Assembly: GCA_000403275.2 (NCBI GenBank)
Contig: KE159598.1
Span: forward strand, 1,067,540-1,131,539
Direction: 5' to 3'
Length of the DNA: 64,000 nucleotides
Source of the DNA: Lachnospiraceae bacterium 28-4
GTDB lineage: Bacteria > Bacillota > Clostridia > Lachnospirales > Lachnospiraceae
Positions within the stretch are counted from its first letter, which is position 1, and the number at the start of each line of letters is the position of its first letter. Both the position numbers and the translations under genes were made by a program. The notes below the pieces were generated by a model. It was not told where the DNA came from, did no database searches, and worked only from the letters and a program-made list of their open reading frames with translations. Positions 1 through 15,341 of the stretch are shown here, piece after piece.

Positions 1-19
1 AATACCCAAATTAATGAAA
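1..19 (+). repeat. Left inverted repeat of the recombinase segment
   Basis: Positions 1-19 (AATACCCAAATTAATGAAA) are the exact reverse complement of 1483-1501. Position 20 no longer matches. The repeat may extend to the left beyond the window. Just inside it, CCTCCTT at 21-27 reads as a Shine-Dalgarno-like AAGGAGG on the minus strand, so a leftward gene may begin just outside the window. Confidence 0.85.
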
Positions 20-101
20 ACCTCCTTTTCCCTCCGCTCTTTTCCCGCATTTTGGGGATTGGAAACAGCATACATGGTTATCCGACGATCATTTTGACGG
101 C

Positions 102-1229
102 TTATCCATTCCTGTCTCCCTGATGCAAATAAGATCCAAACCGGTTCATCAGCATTTTCTTTTGCTGCACTGAGGAATGCACATAAAGCTCCATTGTCAG
201 CCTGATATCGCTGTGACCGAGTATTTCGCTCACGCTTTTTACATCAAACCCCTTCTCGATGCACCTGGAAGCGAAAACATGGCGGAGCATATGGAAGTTA
301 AAATGTTCCAGGCCGCATTCTTCCAAAATTTTCCGGAACTGGTATTGGACGGTGCGGGGATCCGCCCATAAATTCCTGCTCCCTCTGATAATATGTCTGG
401 AATCTTCCTGCCGGTGCTTTTCCAACAGAGGAAGGAGCATCGGGGAAATAGGAACCACGCGGACAGAGTCCGATGTTTTAGGCGTCTGGATCACCGTATG
501 CGTCTTATTTTTCCCACCGCCGTCCCCGCGGACTCTCTGGACATTGTTTCGGATATAAATAACGCCCTCTTTCAGATCAATATCCTTCCAGGTCAAGGCG
601 CACAGTTCTCCGATGCGGATGCCCGTATAAAGAGCGACCAGTATTCCGAAATCTGCATTTCTCCCGCTGTTTGCAATCAAATATTCTTCTAATTTGGACA
701 TCGCCTGTCCCCCCGGCAGGATCACCTGGCATTTTTTACTTTTTATTACCGGATTTGCAGGAACCGGTATGCCGTATCCATGCTTCTTTTTCATATGAAG
801 CAATATCCTTATAACGATAGAACAAATATAAGATAAATAATTCGCAGATAATCCGTTGTCCTGTTCTTTCAGCAACAGGGACACAAAACTTTCCATCGTC
901 TGCTGGTCGATGTTGTTGATTCTTGCATCCCCCAGCCAGGGGATCACATGTTTGTCCAGTATATAGCGGTATTCCCTGCAGGTAGTCGGCTTCCAGCAGA
1001 CTTTTTTTTCGTCGATCCAGACAGACGCCGCTTCCTCCAGTTTTGGCAGTCCCTTTCCTGTCTTCCAGGAGCAGCTCCTTGCTGTTTTCATCTTTTCCTT
1101 TGCCTCTTTATAGGTTTTCCCATAAATCGATAAATAGCTTCTTTTTCCGGGAATCGATGTCTCTTTCCAGATCCTCCCCTCCCATCTTCCATCCTTTCTC
1201 TTATAAATATTTTCTCCTCTTCTCGGCAT
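102..1229 (-). CDS. Tyrosine recombinase / site-specific integrase
   Basis: This is a 375-residue phage-type integrase that cuts and rejoins DNA at specific sites. The N-terminus (from MPRRGENIYKRKDGRW) resembles the arm-binding domain of Tn916/phage-type integrases. It is followed by a SAM-like core-binding domain (about residues 60-165) and the catalytic domain. Catalytic motifs are visible: the first Arg in YTGIRIGELCALTW, the HMLRH box, GHSD, and the nucleophile Tyr in MELYVHS near the C-terminus. The ATG follows a good ribosome site (AAGGAGAAAACAGT). The protein looks intact. No excisionase, transfer or phage genes sit beside it. Its position inside a perfect inverted repeat, divergent from the polysaccharide operon, suggests it flips that segment; substrate and direction control are inferred. 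Confidence 0.93.
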   Translation of the reverse strand: MPRRGENIYKRKDGRWEGRIWKETSIPGKRSYLSIYGKTYKEAKEKMKTARSCSWKTGKGLPKLEEAASVWIDEKKVCWKPTTCREYRYILDKHVIPWLGDARINNIDQQTMESFVSLLLKEQDNGLSANYLSYICSIVIRILLHMKKKHGYGIPVPANPVIKSKKCQVILPGGQAMSKLEEYLIANSGRNADFGILVALYTGIRIGELCALTWKDIDLKEGVIYIRNNVQRVRGDGGGKNKTHTVIQTPKTSDSVRVVPISPMLLPLLEKHRQEDSRHIIRGSRNLWADPRTVQYQFRKILEECGLEHFNFHMLRHVFASRCIEKGFDVKSVSEILGHSDIRLTMELYVHSSVQQKKMLMNRFGSYLHQGDRNG

Positions 1230-1323
1230 ACTGTTTTCTCCTTTCCTGGCTCTTCAGCTATCCGCCGACGACGGCGCTTTTGACGGCCTAAAAAAAATTT
1301 TTGCAGTTTTTACAACCGATAGT

Positions 1324-1352
1324 ATATAAAATATGTGTGATCATACGTCCAA
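1324..1352 (-). promoter_or_regulatory. Putative promoter of the recombinase gene
   Basis: On the minus strand TTGGAC (1347-1352) is followed after 17 bp by TTATAT (1324-1329), about 95 bp upstream of the recombinase ATG. The match is moderate. It lies inside the inverted-repeat segment, so the recombinase would keep its promoter in either orientation. Confidence 0.4.
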
Positions 1353-1420
1353 AAACAACATATTTTTGTTTTTTTACATCAAATGTCTGCGGCAAACAGA
1401 ACATATTTACAAAAATGCTA

Positions 1421-1449
1421 TTGATTTTTAAAATGAATTGTGATACTCT
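1421..1449 (+). promoter_or_regulatory. Putative outward promoter of the polysaccharide operon, inside the invertible segment
   Basis: TTGATT (1421-1426), a 17-bp spacer, then TACTCT (1444-1449) preceded by an extended -10 TG (1441-1442). The start of transcription would fall near 1456, still inside the right repeat boundary. The transcript would read through the repeat into the LCP gene. Inversion would point this promoter out of the left end and remove it from the operon. Confidence 0.5.
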
Positions 1450-1482
1450 AGATAAGAAATTTAAGCGAACGAATAAATACCC

Positions 1483-1501
1483 TTTCATTAATTTGGGTAT
1501 T
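1483..1501 (-). repeat. Right inverted repeat of the recombinase segment
   Basis: The sequence is the exact reverse complement of 1-19. It is also part of a locally symmetric site: AAATACCC (1475-1482), a 12-bp centre, GGGTATTT (1495-1502). Two inverted arms around a short centre are typical of a tyrosine-recombinase core site. The left copy keeps the outer arm and centre but has a different inner arm (ACCTCCTT). Confidence 0.85.
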
Positions 1502-1540: not shown

Positions 1541-2617
1541 GTGATTAGGAAAAAGGGAAAAAAGAAAAGGAGAATCGTAGCGGCTGTACTGCTGGGCATT
1601 GTCTTATATGCCGCCATCATGGGCATTGCTTTTGGAATGATCCGGGCGGCAGGCAAAAGAAGCTTAAGAGGGAATTCGGAAACCGCCCGTCCGGGAATGA
1701 TGCCGGTGAAAGCGGGAGAGGAATTGACACAGGAAGAGGAACAGCAGTGGCAGGAGGGCTGGGTAAAGTACCAGGGAAATCTTTATGCTTACAATGAAGA
1801 TATTTTAACCTTCCTGTTTATGGGAATCGATAAGGACAGCGGGGGGGAAAGAGTAACGGAGGGAACGGATGGCGGAAATGCAGATGCTTTGTTCCTTGCA
1901 GTGATGAATCCGAAAAAAAAGACGGTTCAAATCATCGGCATCAACCGCAATACGATGGCGGATGTGGATATCTATGATGAAAAAGGCAATTATTTAATGA
2001 CCAGCAAGGCGCAGATTACGGTGCAGCATGGTTTTGGCAACGGACTGGAAGAAAGCTGCGAATATCAGAAAAAAGCGGTATCCAGGCTGTTTTATGGGCT
2101 ACCGGTTCATGGCTATGCGGCCATTTATATGAGTGCTATTCCGACAATCAACGATGCGGTGGGCGGCGTGGATGTAAAAGTCATAGAGGATTTGACGGAG
2201 AAAGACAAATCGCTGGTAAAGGATGCGGAGGTACATCTTATGGGGGAAACGGCATTCTGGTATGTAAAATACAGGGATGCAAATATTTTTGGCTCCGCGG
2301 ATATGAGGCTGGAAAGGCAGAAGCAATATTTGAATGCGTTTGTGGCTGCAGCAAAGAATGCGTCAAAAAAAGATATCGGCGTGGTATTGGATCTTTACCG
2401 GGCAGTTGTTCCCATGATGGTCACGGATATTACGCTGGATGAGGTGGCATATTTGGCTCCTGCGGCGCTGGACTACCAGTTTGGCGGAGAAGGAAGTTTT
2501 TATATGCTGGAAGGGGAAACGGTGATGGGGGAAGAATTTGAAGAATTTTATCTGGATGAGGATGCGCTTTATGAAATGATACTGGAAATTTTTTATGAAC
2601 CGGTGGAACTGCAATGA
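1541..2617 (+). CDS. LCP (LytR-CpsA-Psr) family glycopolymer transferase
   Basis: LCP enzymes move finished polysaccharide or teichoic acid from undecaprenyl diphosphate to peptidoglycan or surface acceptors outside the membrane. The 358-residue protein has a Lys/Arg-rich cytosolic start, one membrane helix (about residues 11-34) and an extracellular LCP domain (about 88-300). That domain shows FLFMGIDKDSG, ADALFLAVMNPKK followed by IIGINRNTM (family Asp and Arg), NDAVGGVDV and YVKYRD. The start is GTG at 1541 after GGAG at about 1529. It is the first gene of the polysaccharide operon and the nearest target of the promoter in the upstream invertible segment. Family assignment is firm; the glycopolymer substrate is inferred from context. 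Confidence 0.9.
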   Translation: MIRKKGKKKRRIVAAVLLGIVLYAAIMGIAFGMIRAAGKRSLRGNSETARPGMMPVKAGEELTQEEEQQWQEGWVKYQGNLYAYNEDILTFLFMGIDKDSGGERVTEGTDGGNADALFLAVMNPKKKTVQIIGINRNTMADVDIYDEKGNYLMTSKAQITVQHGFGNGLEESCEYQKKAVSRLFYGLPVHGYAAIYMSAIPTINDAVGGVDVKVIEDLTEKDKSLVKDAEVHLMGETAFWYVKYRDANIFGSADMRLERQKQYLNAFVAAAKNASKKDIGVVLDLYRAVVPMMVTDITLDEVAYLAPAALDYQFGGEGSFYMLEGETVMGEEFEEFYLDEDALYEMILEIFYEPVELQ

Positions 2618-2647: not shown

Positions 2648-3448
2648 ATGAAGAAGAGGCTGGGAAACCATATATGGCAAAGGCGGGCGGTGCTTATCCT
2701 GGTCTGCCTGACGGCAGTCCTGGGGGCGGCCGGATGCGGACGGAAGGAAAATGGGGGAGATCAAAAGGAAACGGAAAAGGAGCAGATGAAGAGTCAGACG
2801 GAGCAGACGACAGGGCTTGCTTATGAAACGGCAAAGGATGGAAAAATTGATTTTGCTGCCCTGCAGAAAGAAAATCCTGATATTTTTGCATGGATCTACG
2901 TTCCTGGAACAGAGGTGGACTGCCCTGTCCTGCAAAGCCCTGTTTCCGATGATTTTTATAAAACCCATACGCCCGACGGCAAAGAAGGATCTATGGGCGC
3001 AGTTTATACGGAAATGCCTAATATGATGGATATGTGTGATTTCAATACGGTGATACATGGCAGGGACAGGGAGGACGGAAATCCCTTTATGGATCTGCAT
3101 CGTCTGGAAGACCCGGATTTTTTTGCAGAGCATGAAAAATTTTATATTTATCTGCCGGATAACGTATTAACTTATGAGATTTTTGCCGTCTATAACGATG
3201 AATGCAGCGATATTCTGCGGCGGTTTGACTATACCACTTATGCCGGCTGCCAGGCATATCTGGAGCAGGTGTATGCTTCCCGGGAAATGGGAAAACAGCT
3301 GCGGGAGGGCTGGGATGACCTGACCCCCTATCATTTCCTTGTTACTTTGAACGGCAGCATCCGGGAAACGGAGGAAAAACAATTTGTTGTAATCGGCGTC
3401 CTGACAGGAGATGCGGCAGGGAGGATCGACCGGGTCATCCTGGATTGA
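2648..3448 (+). CDS. Sortase-B-fold lipoprotein with degenerate active site
   Basis: The 266-residue protein has a lipoprotein signal with lipobox LGAAGC (Cys30), a charged linker, and a class-B sortase-like domain (about 70-255). The domain is recognised by IFAWIYVPGTEVDCPVLQ, FNTVIHG, DGNPFMDLHRL and FVVIGVL. True sortase B has YGH, TLSTC and an Arg shortly before the last strand. Here the His position is Arg139 (IHGRD), the Cys position is Ser237 (TLNGS), and the Arg position is Gln245. It is therefore probably not a transpeptidase; a structural or binding role at the membrane is inferred. Normal SrtB is not a lipoprotein. It lies between the LCP gene and a secreted-protein gene, probably co-transcribed. 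Start chosen after AGGAAGG. Confidence 0.75.
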   Translation: MKKRLGNHIWQRRAVLILVCLTAVLGAAGCGRKENGGDQKETEKEQMKSQTEQTTGLAYETAKDGKIDFAALQKENPDIFAWIYVPGTEVDCPVLQSPVSDDFYKTHTPDGKEGSMGAVYTEMPNMMDMCDFNTVIHGRDREDGNPFMDLHRLEDPDFFAEHEKFYIYLPDNVLTYEIFAVYNDECSDILRRFDYTTYAGCQAYLEQVYASREMGKQLREGWDDLTPYHFLVTLNGSIRETEEKQFVVIGVLTGDAAGRIDRVILD

Positions 3449-4091: not shown

Positions 4092-4143
4092 AAACAGAAA
4101 ACAGTTGAAGCGTTAAGAGTTGTAAAAACCGAGTGTGGGGCTT

Positions 4144-4172
4144 GGTACAGCCGTGCTATGGGCGGCTGTACC
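4144..4172 (+). terminator. Stem-loop between secreted-protein gene and glycosyltransferase genes (attenuator-like)
   Basis: GGTACAGCCG (4144-4153) pairs perfectly with CGGCTGTACC (4163-4172) around a 9-nt loop. Only TTTATC follows, so it is a weak terminator at best. It could be a partial terminator or an RNA stabiliser setting the ratio of secreted protein to transferases. Confidence 0.6.
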
Positions 4173-4200
4173 TTTATCAACAGGCAGAGGAGAAAAGAAA

Positions 4201-4887
4201 ATGGATTCATTGACAAGAGACGTGGAGAAGATATTTAACGCGAGCAGGGAGATGGGCTATCAGGAAATATATGATGAGAAAACAATGGCTTTTAAGGTGC
4301 TGAAGAGGCTGTTTGATATTACGGCATCGTCCTTCGCCCTGCTTATATTATCTCCGGTTTTTCTGCTTACTGCCATAGCTATTCTACTGGAAGACGGAGG
4401 GCCGGTTTTTTTCATACAGCCCAGAGCCGGAAAGGGCATGAAACCCTTTCGGATGTACAAGTTCAGGAGCATGTTTAAAAATGCGGATCAACTGTTTGCA
4501 CAGCTCCAGGAAAAAAATGAACAGTCCGGCCATGCCTTTAAAATTAAAGATGATCCACGTATTACAAAGGTGGGGAAGATAATAAGAAAGTATAGCATCG
4601 ATGAGCTGCCACAGCTGATCAATATCCTGAAGGGGGATATGAGTATTGTGGGGCCAAGGCCAATCCTGACTTTTCAGATGGAAGAATGTAACGTTTATCA
4701 GAAACAGCGTTTAATTGTAAGGCCGGGACTTACCTGTTACTGGCAGATTGGCGGCAGGGCGGATATCCAATGGGAGGAATGGGTAGAGCTGGATTTGAAA
4801 TATATAAAGGATATGGGGATTGGAACGGATCTGGTTATTATCTTGAAGACAATACCCGTGGTGCTAAGGGGAGACGGGGCATATTGA
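4201..4887 (+). CDS. Undecaprenyl-phosphate sugar-1-phosphate transferase (initiating transferase)
   Basis: This enzyme starts each polysaccharide repeat by moving a sugar-1-phosphate from a nucleotide sugar to undecaprenyl phosphate at the inner membrane face. Features of the 228-residue protein are KRLFDI, one hydrophobic segment (about residues 30-52), the catalytic block FFIQPRAGKGMKPFRMYKFR, SIDELPQLINILKGDMS and VGPRP, all typical of the WbaP/WecA-independent bacterial sugar transferase family. It lacks the long N-terminal membrane part of full WbaP. ATG 4201 after GAGGAGAAAAG is chosen; the longer reading from GTG 4135 would pass through the hairpin at 4144-4172. The sugar cannot be told from sequence. 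Confidence 0.92.
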   Translation: MDSLTRDVEKIFNASREMGYQEIYDEKTMAFKVLKRLFDITASSFALLILSPVFLLTAIAILLEDGGPVFFIQPRAGKGMKPFRMYKFRSMFKNADQLFAQLQEKNEQSGHAFKIKDDPRITKVGKIIRKYSIDELPQLINILKGDMSIVGPRPILTFQMEECNVYQKQRLIVRPGLTCYWQIGGRADIQWEEWVELDLKYIKDMGIGTDLVIILKTIPVVLRGDGAY

Positions 4888-4927
4888 AAGCGCATATGAG
4901 GCAATGTAGAAGGGGCCTTAAGGAGCT

Positions 4928-6115
4928 ATGGAATTGAAACGGATGAAAAGAAATTATTTTATATATATTTTTATATTCTGGTATATGGCAAAGATTATAT
5001 GCAGTACTACGTTTGAAACAATTGGAGGGATTCCGGTCGATACCGTAAGCAGCATGATCAATTATCTCGTGCTGGTTCTTCTGGTTATCCAGATGGTTTT
5101 TTTTCAAAGTTATGGTCAAAAGGAGTTCGTTATCATTGCGGTAGTATCCATTCCTTTTCTTATTACTGCGGCCGTATCAAGAAGCTTTTCTCTGTTGTCG
5201 GGGTGGATGTTCGTTGTAGCGGCAAAAGATACCAGTTTTGAAAAAATCATAAAAGCGGTGTATAGAGCTTTGCTCTTTACCATTTTTCTTGTTTTTGTTT
5301 TATATTCCTGCAATATTCTGGAAGACTATACGATGGTAAGGGGCGGCGCGATCAGGCATTCCCTGGGTTTTTCCCATCCGAACCAGCTTGGTGTCAGGAT
5401 GTTCCAGTTGATTGCCTGTCATTGTTATCTGCACCGCCACAAAATGAGGGCGGTGGATTATGGCATCGCGGCCGCGGCCGCAGCATTCGTATATGTTGTG
5501 CCTAATTCACAGTCTTCCTGCATGTGTATAGTGGTTCTGGCGTTGTTGCTGGCCATCGGCCGCTTGCTGGAAAAATATAAGGAAGGCATGCTTTCTTTTT
5601 GCGGGAAGGGACTGACAGCTGCGGCAGCATTATTCAATATTCTAAGCGTTCTGTTGTCTGTGATAGATGTAAAGAGCCATGATGTTTTACGGCAGATCGA
5701 TGTGTGGATGTCCTACCGTTTTTCCCATAGTTTTGAAGTTCTTCAAGTATATGGCATTCCTCTATGGGGGCAGAAAGTATTTTTGATGGAGGAAGAAAGA
5801 CAAAAAATGGGGATGATGGATGGGGCGGGGCGGTTATATCTGGACAATGCCTATATGTCGCTTTTTATAAAATATGGCATAGTATCTTATCTTATTTTTT
5901 CTGTTGCTTATTTGGTGCTAATGAATGATTGCAGAAAGAAAAAGAGATATTTCACCGTCAGCATTTTGTTTGTATATGCTTTATATGGGATTATGGAAAA
6001 TGCTGTGTTTATGATGAGCCATAATATTTTTCTTCTGGCGTTTGCCGGTATGATGTACGAAAGGCTATCCAGGATAAAGGATAAGAAATTATGCCTGAAA
6101 ATACAGAGGCAGTAA
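4928..6115 (+). CDS. Polytopic membrane protein, probable polysaccharide polymerase (Wzy-like)
   Basis: The 395-residue protein has about ten hydrophobic segments and few conserved motifs, as is usual for Wzy polymerases. The neighbourhood (initiating transferase, flippase, glycosyltransferases) lacks any other polymerase candidate. A larger loop around residues 255-310 carries a motif (RFSHSFEVLQ, LYLDNAYMSLFIKYG) resembling the C-terminal region of Wzy/O-antigen-polymerase-like proteins. The likely role is joining lipid-linked repeats at the outer membrane face. ATG 4928 sits only 2 nt after AAGGAG; TTG at 4934 or ATG at 4943 may be the real start. The function comes mainly from context. 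Confidence 0.7.
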   Translation: MELKRMKRNYFIYIFIFWYMAKIICSTTFETIGGIPVDTVSSMINYLVLVLLVIQMVFFQSYGQKEFVIIAVVSIPFLITAAVSRSFSLLSGWMFVVAAKDTSFEKIIKAVYRALLFTIFLVFVLYSCNILEDYTMVRGGAIRHSLGFSHPNQLGVRMFQLIACHCYLHRHKMRAVDYGIAAAAAAFVYVVPNSQSSCMCIVVLALLLAIGRLLEKYKEGMLSFCGKGLTAAAALFNILSVLLSVIDVKSHDVLRQIDVWMSYRFSHSFEVLQVYGIPLWGQKVFLMEEERQKMGMMDGAGRLYLDNAYMSLFIKYGIVSYLIFSVAYLVLMNDCRKKKRYFTVSILFVYALYGIMENAVFMMSHNIFLLAFAGMMYERLSRIKDKKLCLKIQRQ

Positions 6116-6151
6116 GGGTTTATAAATATTGTGCAAGAGAGAAAATGTGGG

Positions 6152-7285
6152 ATGAAGGATTTTATAAAGTACATAGGGATTTTTTTCATAAGAACAATCG
6201 TACGTTTTTTTTATATAGTACCGGTAAAAGCGGACAGGGTCATCATCAGCTGCTACCTGGGTACGCAATATGCGGGGAGTCCCAAGGTGATTTCCGAATA
6301 TATCAGAGAATGGGGAAAAGGAAAGTATGAAATTATCTGGGCTTTTAAAAATAAGGATGATTTTGCTTTCCTGAAAGACTGCGGAATAAAGACGGTAGGT
6401 TACTATTCGATGAAACGTCTGTTTCTGGAGGCAACAGCGAAATATTGCATTGATAATGCGGCAGGATGCTTCGGATGGTTTCCCTCCAGGAAGGGGCAGT
6501 ATCATATCGATACGTGGCATGGAGGCGGATGCTATAAAACAGACGGTATTCTGGAAAAGAGAGGAAAATTTGCCCTTAAGCGTCTATTATTTCATATCCA
6601 TGAAACAACCCACATGGTATCCAGCAGTTCTTTTTTTTCCAGGGAAACTTTAAGAAAGGCGTTATTATATCAAGGAAAGATCCTTGAAATCGGAATGCCC
6701 AGGAATGATATTCTGTTTGAGGCAGAAAAGCATGCCGGGATACGCCGGAAATTAGCGGCAATATATTGCCTGGATATGCAAAAAATATGGATTCTTTATG
6801 CTCCTACATGGAGGGAAGAGGGGGATGTCGGAAGCCCGGATGTGGAACGGATGAAGAAGGCGGTTGCTATTCGTTTTGGCAAGGAGGCTCTTTTTTTGAA
6901 AAGAACCCATAAATTTATGGAGGCTCATGCTGGACAGTCGGTGACGGACGTCACGGATTATACTGATATGCAGGATTTGCTGTGCGCCTGCGATATTCTG
7001 ATCACCGATTATTCTTCTTCCTTGTGGGATTTTTCATTTACTTTTAAGCCTTGCTTTATCTATGCGCCGGACGTGGAAATTTATTATCATAATCGGGGTT
7101 TTTACAGGGATATTTATACATGGGGCTTTCCGGTATGCAAAGACGATGAAGAGTTGTTTCACGCGATTGTCCGCTTTGACGGACAGGCACATAAGGAAAA
7201 TATGGAAAGACATCAAAAAGAACTTGGGTCTTTTGAAAAAGGGAATGCAACGGAATCTTTTTACCGCTACTTTTTTGCAAAATAA
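6152..7285 (+). CDS. CDP-polyol-phosphate transferase (TagB/TagF-like)
   Basis: The 377-residue protein is of the CDP-glycerol glycerophosphotransferase superfamily. These GT-B enzymes move glycerol-phosphate or a related alcohol-phosphate from its CDP donor to a lipid-linked glycan. Family signs are the N-terminal hydrophobic stretch, SCYLGTQYAGSPKVI, IDTWHGGG, ILYAPTWRE, and the conserved ITDYSSSLWDFSF near the C-terminus, followed by FIYAPD. ATG 6152 is chosen; an in-frame GTG at 6131 would add seven residues. It is followed by a fused cytidylyltransferase-type gene that may make its donor. It implies that the polymer carries phosphate-linked substituents or a teichoic-acid-like backbone. 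Confidence 0.87.
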   Translation: MKDFIKYIGIFFIRTIVRFFYIVPVKADRVIISCYLGTQYAGSPKVISEYIREWGKGKYEIIWAFKNKDDFAFLKDCGIKTVGYYSMKRLFLEATAKYCIDNAAGCFGWFPSRKGQYHIDTWHGGGCYKTDGILEKRGKFALKRLLFHIHETTHMVSSSSFFSRETLRKALLYQGKILEIGMPRNDILFEAEKHAGIRRKLAAIYCLDMQKIWILYAPTWREEGDVGSPDVERMKKAVAIRFGKEALFLKRTHKFMEAHAGQSVTDVTDYTDMQDLLCACDILITDYSSSLWDFSFTFKPCFIYAPDVEIYYHNRGFYRDIYTWGFPVCKDDEELFHAIVRFDGQAHKENMERHQKELGSFEKGNATESFYRYFFAK

Positions 7286-7332
7286 TCCTTTTTTATATAA
7301 ACAAAAACATGACAGAAACAGAGGGAATCCAT

Positions 7333-9240
7333 ATGAAAAAATCAGATTTTGACCGTTTGGTAAAAAAATGGAAAGAAGGTACGGCTTCCGCACAGGAAGA
7401 AGAAAGTCTGCTGCCTTATAAGGCTGATAATGCAATTATAATGGCGGCGGGTTACAGCGCCCGCTGCATGCCCTTGTCGGGTGTGATGCCCAAGGGTCTT
7501 TTCCGAATCAAGGGAGAAATTATGATTGAGAGGGAAATTGAACAGCTAATTGCGGCAGGTATTACGGAAATCGTTGTAATAACCGGGTTTATGGCGGAAA
7601 AATTTCAATATCTGAAAGATAAATACCATGTCATTTTAGTAAACAATCCTGATTTCCACCAGTATAATAATATTTCTTCTCTGTATGCAGCGCAAAAGTA
7701 TATGAGAAATTCTTATATCCTTTGCTCGGATAATTATTATGAAGAAAATATTTTTCAACTGTATCACTATGATTCCCATTATTCCTGCATATATTCGGAG
7801 AAATATTGCGACGAATATTTTGTAACGGAGACAGATCCTGACGGCTATATTACGGGAATTCAAAGAGGAGGGGCCGGGGGCTGGTTTACGATAGGAGACG
7901 CATATTTTACGGAAAACTATTCAAAAAAATTTGTTTCGCTGATGAATCGAGACTGGGCGGAGGAGCATACAAGAAATCTGCTGATGGATGATTTCCAAAT
8001 CAGATATTTGGACAGCCTTAAGATGGTAAAAATAGAAAGACCGGGTCGGTCAGTCATGGAGTTTGATACTTTAGAAGAAATCAGACAGTTCGATCCGGAA
8101 TTCGACCGGTTTTATTACGAACATATAGACAGGAATAATGCGGTGATCGAGATTTTTACCAAATATTCCGGCATACAGTCTTATCATTCCGTGCCCACAG
8201 AACAATTAGGAGGAAGGCTTCATTTAAACGAAAATCTGTTTAAACCATCCCCCCGTTGTTTGGAAGCGCTCAGGACAATGGAAATGGAAGATCTTTACTT
8301 ATATGATTTAAGAAGAAATGATGAACTGATGGACGTGTTGTCAAGTTCATTGGAGATCTCGGCCAGCCATATTTTTATTCATAATGGGTCTGCGGAGGTC
8401 ATTAAGTCAATTTTCAGCATTCTCTTGCGGGAAAATGATACGGTATTCATTCCGGAACCGGGGTGGAGCTATTATAAAAGCGTGGCAGATGCCAAATTTG
8501 CAAAATGCATTTCCTACCGTGTGGAAGAAAAGGGGGATGCTTATCGATACAGTATCGAAGATCTCATGGATAAGGCAAAAAGGTATCATCCGCGCGTCAT
8601 CGTCATAACATCGCCGCAAATGCCTACAGGATGTACGATTGCCGATGAAGAGATTGAGAAAATCATAAAGAGCCACCCGGAGTCTGTGATTATGCTGGAT
8701 GAGGCTTATTGGGGATATGGAGATGACAGCAATCGTTTTGAACGGGAAATGATCACGAAATACAGCAATGTGGTGATTACGCGAACCTTTTCCAAATTTT
8801 ATGGCCTGGCAAATATCCGCATAGGATATGGTTTATGCAGTTACCCGTTAAGGAGAACCATCGGACTCGACCTGCCTTTGTTCAGGGCTTCCGGGATCAG
8901 CAGAAAGATTGCGATAGAGGCGGTCAGAGATACGGCGTATTATCGAAAAATGAGAGAATTGACAAATGAGATCCGGGAATGGTTTACAGCAGAACTCAAT
9001 GCGATAGAAGGAGTACATGCTTTCCAGTCGGCTTCCAATTTTGTGTTTGTCCGTTTGGAGAATACTGATGCGGAAAAGGTAAAGGCATATATGGAGGAAA
9101 ATAATATTCTGGTCAGGTTATTTACGGATAGAGACGTATTGCATCTTAGGATTACCATTGCACCAAAGGATATTATGAAGCGCGTGCTTTTTCACCTGAA
9201 ACATGCGATTGCTGACAGCAGGGGGGGAAAGGAGCGGTAA
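7333..9240 (+). CDS. LicC-like nucleotidyltransferase fused to class I/II PLP aminotransferase
   Basis: This is a 635-residue two-domain enzyme. Residues about 30-255 form an NTP-transferase fold with IIMAAGYSARCMPLS, MPKGLF and YNNISSLYAA, as in LicC/PntC-type cytidylyltransferases that activate small phospho-compounds. Residues about 280-630 form a fold-type-I PLP enzyme of the HisC/CobD kind: SPQMPTG, MLDEAYWGYG, and the Schiff-base Lys in RTFSKFYGLANIRIGYG. The fusion suggests consecutive steps, making an amino-alcohol- or phosphonate-type phosphate and coupling it to CTP. The adjacent TagB/TagF-like enzyme would then use it. LicC-aminotransferase fusions are known for aminoethylphosphonate, but those carry a different aminotransferase class. 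ATG 7333 has AGAGGG upstream; the in-frame ATG 7309 has no ribosome site. Confidence 0.85.
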   Translation: MKKSDFDRLVKKWKEGTASAQEEESLLPYKADNAIIMAAGYSARCMPLSGVMPKGLFRIKGEIMIEREIEQLIAAGITEIVVITGFMAEKFQYLKDKYHVILVNNPDFHQYNNISSLYAAQKYMRNSYILCSDNYYEENIFQLYHYDSHYSCIYSEKYCDEYFVTETDPDGYITGIQRGGAGGWFTIGDAYFTENYSKKFVSLMNRDWAEEHTRNLLMDDFQIRYLDSLKMVKIERPGRSVMEFDTLEEIRQFDPEFDRFYYEHIDRNNAVIEIFTKYSGIQSYHSVPTEQLGGRLHLNENLFKPSPRCLEALRTMEMEDLYLYDLRRNDELMDVLSSSLEISASHIFIHNGSAEVIKSIFSILLRENDTVFIPEPGWSYYKSVADAKFAKCISYRVEEKGDAYRYSIEDLMDKAKRYHPRVIVITSPQMPTGCTIADEEIEKIIKSHPESVIMLDEAYWGYGDDSNRFEREMITKYSNVVITRTFSKFYGLANIRIGYGLCSYPLRRTIGLDLPLFRASGISRKIAIEAVRDTAYYRKMRELTNEIREWFTAELNAIEGVHAFQSASNFVFVRLENTDAEKVKAYMEENNILVRLFTDRDVLHLRITIAPKDIMKRVLFHLKHAIADSRGGKER

Positions 9241-9241
9241 A

Positions 9242-10333
9242 ATGGACGGATTGGTCAGTATAATTATTCCGGTCTATAATACGCCCGTTGATAAGCTGCG
9301 AAGATGTATTGACAGCGTATTGGGGCAGACAATGGATCGGCTGGAAGTGATTCTGGTTGATGACGGAAGCGGGCCGCAGTGTGCATCGGAGTTGGATGAG
9401 GCTGCCCGAAAAGACAGTCGGGTACGGGTCATACATAAGAGGAACGAAGGCTCTGCCATTGCCAGAAATACCGGAATAAAGGAAGCTGCCGGCGAATATG
9501 TCACATTTGTGGATTCCGATGATTTTGTGTTTCCGTATATGCTGGAGGATGCATGTACACGGCTGGATCAATACGGAGCCGATATCAGCATGGGGCTGAT
9601 ACGGAGATTTCATGAGACAGATATAGGGAACGACATCGGCATTCGGGATTACACCGGCTTGCAAAAAGACGGAGGTACACAAGCCGCTGACATCAGGATA
9701 GTGAATTCTAAAGAAGGGATCCGCAGATTCGTGAATCATATATTGGGATATCCATCGGGGGATTTTCTGTTTGATGACGGATATATAAGCGACGGGCCTG
9801 TGGCCAGGGTTTGTAGAAAAACAATATTGGAGAAAGCGTTATTCTCCGAGGAATCCTGCTGGAATGATGATACCATATGGAATCTGAACCTGCTGCGGTT
9901 TTGTCATTCCATAGTCATATCGGGAAAGACTTGGTATGCCTATGTGATTAATATGCATTCAAAAACGAGAAGATATCGTCCCGACTGCCCGGCGGAATTT
10001 GCTTATAGGATTTGCCAGGAAAAGCAGATCGTGGATGCGATGTGGCCGGAATGCCGGGATGGGCTGTATCATAGAATCCGTTCTGATATGGCGCTTTTGT
10101 GCAGGACATATTTATTTCATGAGAGCAATCCGTCGGGATGGAAAGAAAGATATGACCAGTTTTTGAGAGCAGCCAATCTGCCGGAATACCAGGAGATGCT
10201 TTGCCATATTGATTTGTCGGGGGAGCCTTTTACAAAAAGGATTTATAAAGCCTTACAATGTTTTTTGTCATTGCATGGCTCTAAGGCGGCAGCATATTTA
10301 ATGTGGTATATGAGTACGGCACGGAATATTTGA
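9242..10333 (+). CDS. Family 2 glycosyltransferase
   Basis: The 363-residue GT-A glycosyltransferase has the usual start VSIIIPVYNT, the nucleotide-binding ILVDDGS, NEGSAIARNTGI, and the metal-binding FVDSDDF (DxD type). Its C-terminal half is specific to this protein and unassigned. It begins 1 nt after the stop of the upstream gene, with AAAGGAG overlapping that gene's end, so the two are translationally coupled. The reading frame is open further upstream to 9203, but this would overlap the preceding gene and lacks a ribosome site. It should add one sugar to the lipid-linked repeat on the cytosolic side; donor and linkage are unknown. Confidence 0.9.
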   Translation: MDGLVSIIIPVYNTPVDKLRRCIDSVLGQTMDRLEVILVDDGSGPQCASELDEAARKDSRVRVIHKRNEGSAIARNTGIKEAAGEYVTFVDSDDFVFPYMLEDACTRLDQYGADISMGLIRRFHETDIGNDIGIRDYTGLQKDGGTQAADIRIVNSKEGIRRFVNHILGYPSGDFLFDDGYISDGPVARVCRKTILEKALFSEESCWNDDTIWNLNLLRFCHSIVISGKTWYAYVINMHSKTRRYRPDCPAEFAYRICQEKQIVDAMWPECRDGLYHRIRSDMALLCRTYLFHESNPSGWKERYDQFLRAANLPEYQEMLCHIDLSGEPFTKRIYKALQCFLSLHGSKAAAYLMWYMSTARNI

Positions 10334-10349
10334 AAAAGGATGTTCTTTC

Positions 10350-11918
10350 ATGGAGAAGATGATCAAGTTAAACAGGGCGGAAAATGCCAAAAAAAGTATC
10401 TTGTGGAGCTGTACCAATAAAATGATATTGTTGGTTTTTCCGTTTGTTCTGCGTATGGTTTTTTTTCGGAAGCTGAGTGCCGATTCTTTAGGGCTTGACA
10501 GCCTTTTTTCTTCTATTTTGCAGGTATTGAATCTTTCCGAACTCGGGTTTAGCAGCGCTGTTGTATATGCGATGTATTCACCGATCGCCCATGGGGATTC
10601 CGATACGGTTTGCGCCATCGTAAGATTCCTGAAAAAAGTGTATTTTATGATAGGAATACTGATTCTTTCCGCCGGACTGCTTTTGATGCCGTGGATTAAA
10701 TATTTTATAAAAGGCAGCGACGCATATCCCGCAAACATTTATATCCTGTTTTTCATTTACCTGGTGAATACATCGGCCAGCTATATGCTGTTTGCTTACA
10801 GGGAGACGCTATTGACCGCTTATCAGCGGAATGATGTTAGAAGCATTATTTATACGCTCACCAAAACGATGACATATCTGTTCCAGATCGTCATTATTAT
10901 AACAACAAAGAATTACTATTATTATGCGGCATGTCTGGTGGCGGGAACAGTTGCCAATAATATATTGATTAAGATATCAACGGAAAAGCTGTTTCCTGAA
11001 GTTCATGGACAGGGAAACATCGATAAAATATTAAGAACGGATATTCTTCTGAAAGCAAAAGGGTTGATGCTGGACAAAATTTGTTCGGTTTCCAGAAATT
11101 CCCTGGATAGCATTTGTATTTCCGGTTTTCTTGGGCTGGCAATGAATGCAAAATATAATAATTATTATATGATATTGGCCGCAGTGGTGTCTCTGCTTTC
11201 CATGATCGGACATTCTATTATAGGAGGGGTTGGTAACAGCGTAGTGACCGAAACAGTGGAAAAAAATTTTGGAGATATGAAAAAAATCAATTTTTTGTAT
11301 ATGTGGATCAGCGGTTGGTTTACGACATGTTTATTTTGTTTGTATCAGCCGTTTATTTCTTTGGCGTATGGAGCCGGTATGAAGCTTTCAAAATGGAGCG
11401 TTTGCCTGTTTTGCATTTACTTTTATGTATTGGAGATGGGAACGGTTCGGGGGATTTATTCGGATGCATGCGGGCTGTGGTGGGAGAACCGTTACCGGAC
11501 AGCTGCAGAGATTATAAGCAATATTGTTTTAAACGTTGTGCTTGGCAAGCTATGGGGAATCAACGGGATTATTGCGGCAACATTGATTTCGCTGATCATA
11601 ATCAATTTTGCGTGGGGATCCCATATCATTTTTATACATTATTTTAAAGGGATTTCTATAAAAGAATATTTTATTCCTCATATGAAGTATGCCATGGTAA
11701 CAGGCTTTGTGGCAGCAATCACAAATTATGTATGCGGAATGGTGCCGTACAAAGGAGGATTGGGCATAGCGGTTATGTTGGCAGTTTGTGCATTGGTGCC
11801 CAATTTGCTCTATATAGTTTTATTCCGGCAGTTCGAAATTTACAGGGCAGCCATGGAATGGATCGGAGCGGTGCTGCATGTGGACCGCTGTTGGTTTATG
11901 AAATGGCTGGTGAAGTAA
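10350..11918 (+). CDS. Polysaccharide flippase (Wzx/MOP superfamily)
   Basis: The 522-residue polytopic protein has about 12-14 hydrophobic segments and an N-terminus typical of Wzx-type exporters (NRAENAKKSILWSCTNKMI, then LRMVFFRKLSADSLGLDSL). It should flip undecaprenyl-diphosphate-linked repeats across the membrane for the polymerase. It begins 16 nt after the GT2 gene and is part of the same operon. Length and hydropathy fit the family. The repeat-unit specificity cannot be read. Confidence 0.87.
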   Translation: MEKMIKLNRAENAKKSILWSCTNKMILLVFPFVLRMVFFRKLSADSLGLDSLFSSILQVLNLSELGFSSAVVYAMYSPIAHGDSDTVCAIVRFLKKVYFMIGILILSAGLLLMPWIKYFIKGSDAYPANIYILFFIYLVNTSASYMLFAYRETLLTAYQRNDVRSIIYTLTKTMTYLFQIVIIITTKNYYYYAACLVAGTVANNILIKISTEKLFPEVHGQGNIDKILRTDILLKAKGLMLDKICSVSRNSLDSICISGFLGLAMNAKYNNYYMILAAVVSLLSMIGHSIIGGVGNSVVTETVEKNFGDMKKINFLYMWISGWFTTCLFCLYQPFISLAYGAGMKLSKWSVCLFCIYFYVLEMGTVRGIYSDACGLWWENRYRTAAEIISNIVLNVVLGKLWGINGIIAATLISLIIINFAWGSHIIFIHYFKGISIKEYFIPHMKYAMVTGFVAAITNYVCGMVPYKGGLGIAVMLAVCALVPNLLYIVLFRQFEIYRAAMEWIGAVLHVDRCWFMKWLVK

Positions 11919-11948
11919 AAATATAGAGGAACGGCAGCGTGAGAATGC

Positions 11949-11971
11949 TTGTGTCTGCGCTGCGCACACAA
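11949..11971 (+). repeat. Small inverted repeat between flippase and GT4 genes
   Basis: In the 95-nt gap, TTGTGT and ACACAA bracket a GCGC-rich centre, giving a short hairpin. No T-run follows, so it is unlikely to terminate transcription. Nothing else is seen in the gap apart from the ribosome site (GAGGTAATAT) of the next gene. Confidence 0.35.
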
Positions 11972-12013
11972 ACTTAAAATATGCAAAAAAACAGCGCAGA
12001 AATGAGGTAATAT

Positions 12014-13111
12014 ATGAAAATCGCAGTAATTGGGGCAAAAGGACTGCCATCGAGAATAAGCGGGCTGGAGGTTTATGTCAATAATGTATGTACGGGTCTT
12101 GCAGCAGATTTTGAGATTACGGTATTCGTAAGAAAACGGTACTGCGACGAAATCGTGAAAAGATATAAAGGGGTACGCATTGTGCATATTCCTTCTATAA
12201 ATACAAAGCATCTAGATGCTGTAAGCTATAGTTTTTTTGCTGCCGTAGCAGCAATTTTCGGCGGATATGATATTTTTTGGTATCAGGCGCTGGGACCTGC
12301 GGTTACCGCATTCCTCCCAAAATTGTTCGGAAAGAAAATCTTGTCAACCGTACATGGACTCGACTGGAAAAGGGAAAAGTTCGGAAAACTCGCTTCTTAT
12401 GTGTTGAAGAAAGGGGAAAAGGCAATCGCGAAGTATGCCGACGGAATTATCGTTTTGAATGAATCCGATGCCGGCTATTTTCTGAAAACATGGAAACGTA
12501 AAGCCAATGTGATTCACAATGGGGTTAAGGCAGCCCATTATGCGGCAGCGAAGAGCATAACGGGAAAATATAGGATAAAAAAGGGGGAATATTTTTTATT
12601 TCTTTCTCGTCTGGTGCCAGAAAAAAATGTACATTGCCTGATTCGGGCATTTCAGAAATTGGATACGGATAAAAAACTGATTATTGCGGGCAAAGGGGTT
12701 CATACAAGCCTGTATGAAAATGAAGTCAGGAAAATGGCGCGCAATAATGAAAATATTCAATTTGCCGGATATGTGGAAGGAACCCTGCTGGAAGAACTCT
12801 ATAGCAATGCATACGCTTATATACTGCCTTCCACAATAGAAGGGCAGTCGATTGGGCTATTGGAGGCTATGAGTTATGGTCTGCCATGTATCGTGAGCGA
12901 TATACCGGAAAATGCAGGAGTAATCGGAGATGCCGGATTATCTTTTGCTTCAAACGATGTGGAAGCGTTAAAAGATAGACTGAAATTTGCCATAGACCAT
13001 CCCGGGGAATTGCGTGTAATGGGCGCCAAGGCCAGGGAAATAGCCTTAAAGGAACATGATTGGGAAAAAACTATTCGATGTACCAAAGAAGTAATTGACA
13101 GATGCATATAA
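12014..13111 (+). CDS. Family 4 glycosyltransferase (DUF1972-type, rhamnosyltransferase-like)
   Basis: This is a 365-residue GT-B enzyme. The N-terminus VIGAKGLPSRISGLEVYV matches the glycine-rich start of the DUF1972 group of capsule GT4 enzymes. Other landmarks are VHGLDWKREKFGK, VIHNGV and LFLSRLVPEKN, then the donor-binding EGQSIGLLEAMSYGLP with the EX7E-type spacing. Related proteins are often first-sugar rhamnosyltransferases, but the donor here cannot be established. It belongs to the same rightward operon. Confidence 0.88.
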   Translation: MKIAVIGAKGLPSRISGLEVYVNNVCTGLAADFEITVFVRKRYCDEIVKRYKGVRIVHIPSINTKHLDAVSYSFFAAVAAIFGGYDIFWYQALGPAVTAFLPKLFGKKILSTVHGLDWKREKFGKLASYVLKKGEKAIAKYADGIIVLNESDAGYFLKTWKRKANVIHNGVKAAHYAAAKSITGKYRIKKGEYFLFLSRLVPEKNVHCLIRAFQKLDTDKKLIIAGKGVHTSLYENEVRKMARNNENIQFAGYVEGTLLEELYSNAYAYILPSTIEGQSIGLLEAMSYGLPCIVSDIPENAGVIGDAGLSFASNDVEALKDRLKFAIDHPGELRVMGAKAREIALKEHDWEKTIRCTKEVIDRCI

Positions 13112-13151
13112 ATATACATAAAAAGGTCAGAATATAGATCGGGATAAGGAT

Positions 13152-15341
13152 ATGAAAAGGAAAGAAGAATATATGGATGCAAAAGGGCGCATCGAATGGA
13201 TCGATTTTGCCAAAGGGATCGCAATGCTTTGCGTGATTCTCGGGCATTTGGGCAGTGATCTTGCGAACCGCGTGGTATTTGGCTTTCATTTGACGGTTTT
13301 TTTCCTGTTGGGCGGATATACTTTGAAGCCGGCCGGCTTTGGCGGGGAATTTCTGGAAACACAATTTAGAAAGTTGATGGTGCCTTATTTTTATACATGT
13401 TTGTTCGTGCTGCTATTCGATGTGGCAAATTCTGTTTTGATCGATAAGGATGCCAGCATATTGACCATTACGGAAATTGCCGGCAGAGATCTTGCCAGTT
13501 TCTTTTATGCGTCAGGAAGCATTAAAACGTTCGGGCCAGCGCAGATGGGGCGGTATATCGGGGCCATCTGGTTTTTGCCGGCCATGTTTTTTGCTTCCGT
13601 ATTCGTTCAATGGATCATAAACCGGGTGAAAGATCCGAAAAAGCAATATGCTGTTCTTTTGCTGGCAAGCGTGGAAAGCTATCTTTTATCAAAATTCATA
13701 TGGCTCCCGTTCAGCATACAACCTGGCATCATGTGTGCATTTCTCCTGTTGGCAGGAAGGGATATCAGAAGATATGAAATCATAAAAAAGATGAAGGCAG
13801 GGCATTGCCTGTTGCTGTCCGCCATTGCCGTTTTCGGTATCTGCGGGGAGTATACGCGCATTTATTTTGTGACGTGTACGTTACAGGACTGGATCATTTC
13901 TTGGATTGTCACCATCAGTATGAGTCTGCTGCTTATGAAATTTGCTCAAATATCAGAAACGGCAATGACGGGAAAAGAAAATATTCGGGCCGGCATTCTG
14001 GCAGTCATGGGGCGGATGAGGCTCGTGAGGGCAGTGGTTGTTTACATAGGGCGAAATTCTCTTTTCTACTTGTGCGTACATTTGCTGGAAATGAATACTA
14101 TGTTTTATTATCAGGATTGGCTTTTGGCAAAGATGGGGATTGCGGAAGGCTTTTATACAGGGGCGAAATTCGGTCTGAAGCTGGTGATGATCACCATGAT
14201 TGTCAAGGGCGTTCAGATATTGCGCAGGACGGAAGGATATGCCAGACAGAGAGAATCCCAGGTTCTTTCTTCCGTATATCAATCGGGGGGGGGTAGAGTC
14301 GGGTATAACAAAAACCGCGATGTGGCGGTGGATATAGAAAAGGGGATTTTGATGATTGCGATGCTGGCCGGCCATGTGACGATCAATCCGGGGCTGCGGA
14401 GAATCATTTATTCATTTCATTTGGCGGCATTTGTTGTGCTTTCAGGATATTTTTACAGGAAAGGAAGGGGATTAAAAAATACATTAAGAGGTCTGTTCAG
14501 AACCTTTCTGATTCCCTATGGTATATTCTGCGCCGTGCATTTTGCCATATCATGGACAGGAAATCCGGAACATGGAGTGCTTTATTACATGAAGCAATAT
14601 TTATTTGGCATGAGCTTTTCCAAAAATCTTTGGCAGGATGTTCCCTCCGTCGGACCGATCTATTTTATTTTGTTGCTTTTGCTGGTACGGTTGTTTTATT
14701 ATGGAACAGACCAGGCGCTTTGCTATGCAGCAAAAAAAAGGAAGGCCGAAACCGGGAAATGGGAGGCTGTGTTATATCGAATGCTCGCGGCCACAGGCCT
14801 TTCTGTTGCAGGAATGTATCTTGGGAAGGCCGGATGGTGGCTGCCATGGAGCACGGATGCCGCCCTATATTGCGTTTTATTTTATTGGACAGGCATTCAA
14901 TTAAAAGAATATCATATACCGGAGCGGTGCAGCAATAACCCGTACCTTTATTTTTTTCTGGCACCGGTCTGGGCGTATGCCATTTATGAAGGTAATATGT
15001 CCATTGCCGGCAGGGATTATACACCTTATGGAATAATCATAGCAGGGGCTTTATCTGCTGTTTTGCTGCTTTATATGTTCTCCCGGTATTTAAGGGATCA
15101 TTGGAGTCCGTATATCGTAAGTTTTTTGGCATTGACCGGGGAATCCTCCGTTTGCATTTTGCTGATACATACGTTGTTTAACGGGCGGATAGGGGATTTT
15201 TATACCCGTTGGTTCCATCCAGAGTACATATATCATATGGCTGCAAGCAATGGCACACAGATCCTGATTGGAATAATGATATGGATGCTGATAAAAATAT
15301 ACAAACGAAAAGATCGGAAGGTTTTTCGAAAAACTGCTTGA
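13152..15341 (+). CDS. Tandem double acyltransferase-3 membrane protein
   Basis: The 729-residue protein consists of two AT3-family (OafA/WecH-like) domains in a row. Domain 1 (about residues 15-370) has IDFAKGIAMLCVILGH and GFHLTVFFLLGGYTL. Domain 2 (about 390-715) repeats the pattern as DIEKGILMIAMLAGH and SFHLAAFVVLSGYF. AT3 proteins add acetyl or other acyl groups to surface glycans; the His in each GH motif is the conserved residue. A run of nine G (14285-14293) lies in the inter-domain linker. Gain of one G gives an in-frame TAG at once, leaving domain 1 alone. ATG 13173 (after AAAGGAAAGAAG) is an alternative start. It closes the polysaccharide operon; the next promoter overlaps its stop. 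Confidence 0.88.
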   Translation: MKRKEEYMDAKGRIEWIDFAKGIAMLCVILGHLGSDLANRVVFGFHLTVFFLLGGYTLKPAGFGGEFLETQFRKLMVPYFYTCLFVLLFDVANSVLIDKDASILTITEIAGRDLASFFYASGSIKTFGPAQMGRYIGAIWFLPAMFFASVFVQWIINRVKDPKKQYAVLLLASVESYLLSKFIWLPFSIQPGIMCAFLLLAGRDIRRYEIIKKMKAGHCLLLSAIAVFGICGEYTRIYFVTCTLQDWIISWIVTISMSLLLMKFAQISETAMTGKENIRAGILAVMGRMRLVRAVVVYIGRNSLFYLCVHLLEMNTMFYYQDWLLAKMGIAEGFYTGAKFGLKLVMITMIVKGVQILRRTEGYARQRESQVLSSVYQSGGGRVGYNKNRDVAVDIEKGILMIAMLAGHVTINPGLRRIIYSFHLAAFVVLSGYFYRKGRGLKNTLRGLFRTFLIPYGIFCAVHFAISWTGNPEHGVLYYMKQYLFGMSFSKNLWQDVPSVGPIYFILLLLLVRLFYYGTDQALCYAAKKRKAETGKWEAVLYRMLAATGLSVAGMYLGKAGWWLPWSTDAALYCVLFYWTGIQLKEYHIPERCSNNPYLYFFLAPVWAYAIYEGNMSIAGRDYTPYGIIIAGALSAVLLLYMFSRYLRDHWSPYIVSFLALTGESSVCILLIHTLFNGRIGDFYTRWFHPEYIYHMAASNGTQILIGIMIWMLIKIYKRKDRKVFRKTA
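14285..14293 (+). repeat. G9 homopolymer in coding sequence (possible slippage site)
   Basis: Nine consecutive G residues in the linker between the two acyltransferase domains, read as Ser-Gly-Gly-Gly. It is the longest G run I saw in the window. A +1 change places TAG directly after the run. Such tracts are known contingency sites in other bacteria; activity here is unproven, and sequencing error is possible. Confidence 0.6.

Follow-up and report, generated by a model that had tools for sequence, protein, structure and literature searches.

Introduction

Gut bacteria vary their surfaces to a large extent through the inversion of promoters, and most invertible segments described in Clostridia are short and have the recombinase gene next to them. 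Hin of Salmonella is a serine recombinase that acts at hix sites together with an enhancer and Fis, and the segment that it inverts also holds an outward promoter. In this system the invertase gene lies inside the invertible segment (hix-hin-hix), next to the controlled operon, and the segment measures 966 bp according to the part of PMC5903667 drawn on here. Tyrosine recombinases invert promoter-bearing segments in C. difficile (RecV) and E. coli (fim); the same part of that source gives 154–230 bp for the C. difficile segments and 314 bp for fim, and describes RecV as acting on several distant switches. For Clostridia, invertons of group 139 have been linked to nearby tyrosine-type recombinases of invertase group 35, and two examples have about 206 and 228 bp between their repeats, with the recombinase nearby (PMC11892184, in the part drawn on here). 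Our literature search, which covered few subscription papers and no bioRxiv preprints, found no description of a clostridial inverton that encloses its own tyrosine recombinase, which is weak evidence of absence.

Here we analyse a 64,000-nucleotide stretch (positions 1,067,540–1,131,539) of contig KE159598.1 of Lachnospiraceae bacterium 28-4, referred to as the window, and conclude that positions 1–1509 are very probably a self-contained inversion cassette that carries its recombinase and an outward promoter ahead of a polysaccharide operon. A first-pass annotation had read the locus as an inversion switch, and this reading is supported by the assembly junctions, by a conserved cassette anatomy and by homologous flanks found at opposite cassette ends. 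The locus resembles that of Hin in having the invertase gene inside the segment and the controlled operon beside it, but the enzyme is a tyrosine recombinase (Phage_integrase) associated with 10+7+10-bp sites and paired GTCA repeats, and the 60 cassettes from the matches listed are 1272–1672 bp long. By analogy the cassette would work like Hin, but it is not a member of the Hin-type serine invertases. The likeness to group 139 invertons lies in the host class, the closeness of a tyrosine-type recombinase and the invertible segment; in contrast to these, the segment here is 1.4–1.5 kb long and has the recombinase inside. At about 1.5 kb, it also exceeds the RecV and fim segments.

Results

An inverted repeat encloses a single recombinase gene

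The segment and its ends hold the following features (window coordinates).

1–19, no strand: left recombination site, the part within the window, with the last 2 bases of the outer arm (1–2), the 7-bp spacer TACCCAA (3–9) and the inner arm ATTAATGAAA (10–19)
83–101, minus strand: putative arm-type site just past the recombinase stop, GCCGTCAAAATGATCGTCG, with paired GTC half-sites; direct repeat, matching the relaxed family pattern only
102–1229, minus strand: tyrosine recombinase, 375 aa, Pfam Phage_integrase, E 3e-28
1269–1287, minus strand: putative arm-type site just ahead of the recombinase gene, GCCGTCAAAAGCGCCGTCG; direct repeat, matching the relaxed family pattern only
1406–1434, plus strand: outward promoter candidate TTTACA-17-TAAAAT, z 2.35, with 1 of 30 shuffles equally good; 48 bp from the repeat
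1421–1449, plus strand: alternative outward promoter candidate TTGATT-17-TACTCT, with TG before the second hexamer; ends 33 bp from the repeat
1483–1509, no strand: right recombination site, 27 bp, with inner arm TTTCATTAAT, spacer TTGGGTA and outer arm TTTTGCGAAA

The perfect 19-bp inverted repeat at 1–19 and 1483–1501, which belongs to a 38-nt pair in the repeat listing, is real as first annotated: the longest inverted repeat in 300 dinucleotide shuffles of 1–1501 was 14 bp. The only gene between the two copies is that of the tyrosine recombinase, and the invertase gene thus lies within the inverted segment. No known RNA element was found in the segment region at gathering scores.

The enclosing repeat is a trait of the recombinase family

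A match to the recombinase at E 1e-60 or better was found in 17 of 98 related genomes searched, and a scan of named genomes gave at least 80 recombinase loci, mostly in Clostridia. Repeats were counted at the 60 loci with 1 kb on both sides, 20 of 80 being left out for short flanks; the 60 cassettes used for length, core site and neighbour direction are a separate set drawn from 87 loci, with 7 added by hand (repeat already seen, or the window and its genus), and three near copies (L084, L085 and L086) all count in the tallies of repeat, length, core site and neighbour direction. From the matches listed, the gene is enclosed by a perfect inverted repeat, 14 bp long or longer, at 46 of these 60 loci, compared with 28 of 1200 mismatched pairs of flanks, and one of at least 16 bp at 44 of the 60, compared with 3 of 1200. 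On viral contigs, an enclosing repeat is present in 8 of 11 close relatives, which include two identical pairs, versus 2 of 48 lower-ranked integrases. Both comparisons indicate that enclosure by a repeat characterises this recombinase family and not integrases at large. The annotation's remark that the recombinase usually lies outside the flipped DNA was therefore overstated, given the 46 of 60 listed relatives with the gene inside and the precedent of Hin. Fourteen of the 60 full-flank relatives from the matches listed lack a flanking repeat of at least 14 bp; L083, L101, L108 and L150, which are without a 14-bp repeat, have flanking core-like sites with matching spacers.

Core sites of 27 bp bound the segment

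The window starts inside the left site, the full 27 bp of which, as joined to the left flank, lie at 9832–9858 of the left contig (L003). With two 10-bp arms and a 7-bp spacer, the sites extend 8 bp outside each 19-bp repeat. The same register, TTTCGYARAR-N7-YTYTRCGAAA (10+7+10 bp), was found in 59 of the 60 cassettes from the matches listed by a script that required identical spacers at both ends of each cassette; under this requirement, 55 distinct spacers occur in these 59. The two arms of one site agree at 7.6 of 10 positions, versus 6.0 of 10 for arms taken from other loci. Exchange between inverted sites with non-palindromic spacers leads to inversion, not to excision. As the spacers of the window sites are non-palindromic and face each other, recombination should invert the 1.5-kb segment rather than cut it out.

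A different core had been proposed at first, with symmetric 7-bp arms (AATACCC/GGGTATT, 1476–1501) around a 12-bp centre. This dyad is found at the right end only; because the left end is without it and the 27-bp site agrees with those of the relatives, it is probably not the core. A remote target in trans was also considered and rejected, since the genome has the 17-mer of spacer and inner arm, with up to 2 mismatches allowed, nowhere but at the ends of the two segment copies described below.

Some relatives differ in the number or placement of their sites. Further core-site copies with the same spacer are present in L146 and L148, so that more than two arrangements may be possible there. In L116 and L121, two core-like sites lie on one side of the recombinase gene, about 160 and 390 bp apart, forming a small inverton beside the gene; the self-enclosed cassettes and the group 139 kind may thus be related.

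Both orientations are present in the assembly

Immediately to the left of window base 1 is a run of 200 N. It begins exactly where the repeat has its outer edge, and on its far side ends a copy of 1–1501 in exact reverse complement. The suspicion of an assembly break at this point was therefore right; the 200 N may stand for a gap in the assembly or for sequence that was masked. In the left contig, the promoter end of the segment adjoins the flank that carries a Nudix gene; in the right contig (that of the window), it adjoins the operon flank. Both orientations of the segment are thus present around the gap, with the promoter end attached to both flanks. The orientation differs from one flank to the other, as expected from a mixed population in which assembly stopped at the outer edge of the repeat, and this is the more likely reading of the junctions. 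Contig ends are also frequent at related loci, with 15 of 80 loci among the matches listed having one within 600 bp of the recombinase gene, versus 5.7 expected; the contig of L091 stops inside its recombination site.

The pair of exact copies on the two sides of the 200-N gap would also be seen if fixed, inverted 1.5-kb copies surrounded unassembled sequence, with nothing flipping. We regard this as quite improbable: the identity of the copies over 1501 bp and the ending of both at the outer edge of the repeat are predicted by inversion but not required by duplication, and related cassettes occur singly at each locus, bounded by inverted sites with matching spacers. In addition, homologous flanks are found at either cassette end in related loci. 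Homologous LCP genes (49%) lie at opposite cassette ends in the window and in L061, the start of which is cut by the contig; the same holds for FHA genes in L088 versus L087, L098 and L142, for TadZ genes in L093 versus L166, and for a flank with 82% DNA identity over 560 bp in L084 versus L184, the latter having no recognisable left site. Many other pairs of loci agree in orientation. Comparison of orientation in relatives, which the first-pass annotation had suggested, thus speaks for inversion in these four sets of opposite-end flanks, but not at comparable loci on complete Enterococcus raffinosus plasmids, which show one orientation only and whose repeats lack the usual core, nor in L084, L085 and L086, which all have the same orientation.

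The recombinase and its putative arm sites

R205, H313, R316, H339 and Y349 are invariant in two family alignments (16 and 33 sequences), and we take these R, R-H-R and Y positions to be the catalytic residues of tyrosine recombinases. An AlphaFold model of the protein (mean pLDDT 87.8, pTM 0.70) has its best fold match in the Tn1549 integrase (E 2.0e-14), and lambda integrase (E 2.9e-11) aligns along the full length, including the N-terminal domain. The N-terminus is predicted to form three strands and a helix (beta-beta-beta-alpha) and shows a weak trace of Pfam AP2 (E 0.66). The model thus suggests a likeness to integrases of the Tn1549/lambda type, and the paired repeats described below resemble the arm sites of such enzymes. 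These integrases integrate and excise, whereas the cassette sites here face each other. As the Tn1549 integrase structures cover aa 82–397, without the N-terminal domain, the comparison of arm sites draws on lambda integrase.

The putative arm-type sites of the window, 83–101 and 1269–1287 on the minus strand, are two copies of one direct repeat. Across the family, pairs of GTCA words 12–13 bp apart flank the recombinase gene immediately before and after it, in the direction of the gene. Strict pairs on the strand of the gene are present upstream in 40 and downstream in 23 of 58 cassettes from the matches listed, versus 0 and 1 of 58 on the opposite strand, and the outer flanks of these 58 listed cassettes hold 0 and 2. 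With a relaxed pattern, the counts from the matches listed rise to 48 of 58 upstream and 43 of 58 downstream; the pattern was derived from the same sequences on which it was counted, the downstream interval took in the last 60 bp of the recombinase gene, and the total of 58 omits two of the near copies L084, L085 and L086. No paired GTCA was found upstream of 50 control integrases. By analogy with lambda/Tn1549-type integrases, the paired repeats are likely to be arm sites for the N-terminal domain. As they travel with the segment, the same complex would form in both orientations, and the reaction would be reversible.

A putative outward promoter faces a polysaccharide operon

Beyond the right site, the following genes were annotated in one direction.

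1541–2617, plus strand: LytR-CpsA-Psr (LCP) family protein, first gene of the operon, by family match
2648–3448, plus strand: class B sortase-like protein, match below curated cut-offs
4135–15341, plus strand: polysaccharide genes in one direction, comprising the four named below and further reading frames
4135–4887, plus strand: sugar transferase
6131–7285, plus strand: glycerophosphotransferase
7309–9240, plus strand: NTP-transferase/aminotransferase
10350–11918, plus strand: Polysacc_synt flippase-like protein

Direction and spacing suggest that the polysaccharide genes at 4135–15341 form one operon. A plain promoter scan of the window region gave 3 sites against a shuffle mean of 6.0, not above chance, and the window candidate is weaker than the promoters of the family. 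The case for a promoter in the window derives from the family: from the matches listed, 51 of 57 cassettes have an outward TTGACA-17-TATAAT-like site between the repeat and the gene start (mean z 3.5), and 7 of 57 have an inward one in the same interval. A site was counted if it was better than at least 90% of 30 shuffles for each cassette, and the total of 57 omits L125, with a short interval, and two of L084, L085 and L086. Among control integrases, 11 of 50 have an outward and 9 of 50 an inward promoter. The -10 element ends 20–40 bp from the repeat in 36 of the 51 listed cassettes with an outward promoter, so the 33 bp of TTGATT-17-TACTCT are more typical of the family than the distance of the other candidate. 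The promoter that the annotation had placed inside the repeat thus finds outward candidates here and in the listed relatives, but no backing from the plain scan.

Inversion might be real without controlling the operon, if the outward promoter were otherwise used or the operon had its own. Two same-genus cassettes ahead of capsule operons have no promoter at the usual place (z 0.01 in L062; best site 247 bp from the repeat in L064), and either neighbour is a possible target in 17 of 60 cassettes from the matches listed. In 26 of 60, again from the matches listed, both neighbours run in the direction of the recombinase, so that the promoter points away from the likely target. We nevertheless consider the absence of operon control unlikely, as the promoter candidates read into the LCP gene, which has its start at 1541, 40 bp from the repeat, and outward promoters recur in the listed cassettes as counted above.

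Neighbouring genes and mobility

In three same-genus species (L062, L064 and L065), a recombinase 50–51% identical to that of the window precedes a capsule operon, the first protein of which resembles the CpsB/CapC protein of L081 at its start. The scan of 35 neighbour proteins of other cassettes gave 3 capsule or sugar enzymes or chain-length proteins, 8 repeat or surface proteins (one through a match below cut-off), 1 pilin-like protein, 4 FHA/DUF6382 proteins, 1 TadZ and 2 NRPS proteins; the rest were regulators, enzymes or unmatched.

Alternatively, the segment could be a small mobile element, made up of an integrase and its ends, that has inserted upstream of the operon. The nearest solved relatives of the recombinase are Tn1549 integrase entries, a related locus (L067) has the window's polysaccharide genes with no recombinase in the 12.6 kb covered, and three named species share one cassette (L084, L085 and L086) in near-identical form over at least 8.8 kb. 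However, the end sites are inverted with non-palindromic spacers, an arrangement established to give inversion and not excision, the unit carries a conserved outward promoter, and an empty site was not found among the loci examined. The 8.8–13 kb shared by L084–L086 reach far past the cassette, so that a larger element may have moved, or contamination is possible. Taken together, insertion of a small mobile element is highly improbable, and an inversion cassette remains our preferred reading.

In L084, L085, L086 and L163, from differently named species, an ErmB-like gene lies 450 bp beyond the repeat of a near-identical cassette. Among the relatives from large Enterococcus plasmids (L175–L180), in which the usual core is not evident, accessory SecA2 system genes follow in L179, and WxL proteins are encoded in L180.

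Discussion

In the proposed mechanism, the recombinase (102–1229) would recombine the two 27-bp end sites and thereby flip the 1.5-kb segment, and the promoter near the 5' end of its gene would read outwards. In the orientation of the window (ON), transcription would cross the right site into the LCP, sortase and polysaccharide operon. In the other orientation (OFF), the promoter would face a terminator-like hairpin behind the Nudix gene, leaving the operon without this promoter. This hairpin lies between the Nudix gene and the left site (z -6.04), where an outward OFF transcript would meet it. The GTCA pairs that flank the gene would probably serve as arm sites for the N-terminal domain, and the pair immediately upstream may also restrain the expression of the recombinase itself.

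It is an even call whether these cassettes form a widespread and so far undescribed class in Clostridia, 1.3–1.7 kb long, with 27-bp sites, a spacer private to each locus, a strong promoter that points outwards and an integrase of the lambda/Tn1549 type whose gene has arm sites on either side; an ICE-type integrase would then have become a plug-in switch in front of capsule, pilus, surface-protein and NRPS genes, and the private spacer would let each copy address only itself. As enzyme, promoter and sites lie in one cassette recognisable from sequence alone, phase-variable capsule, pilus and surface-protein operons would be predictable in unsequenced populations. The cassettes are a natural experiment on integrases becoming invertases and, with 55 spacers in 59 cassettes from the matches listed, a compact set of switches that may be orthogonal. 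Software commonly used to find invertons accepts repeats up to about 750 bp apart. If this limit is true, all 60 cassettes from the matches listed would be missed.

A second cassette with family-type sites lies about 26 kb past the right end of the window (G000:C1:1157504-1158968); its recombinase is broken by an internal stop, and it adjoins a TnpB-family protein. Such a protein, partial in some, is also close to the recombinase in L077, L079, L102, L106, L165 and L167, and is possibly cargo or a target of the switch. In L089, L105, L108, L115 and L135, the recombinase frame has one in-frame stop in the matched stretch, and these switches may be locked.
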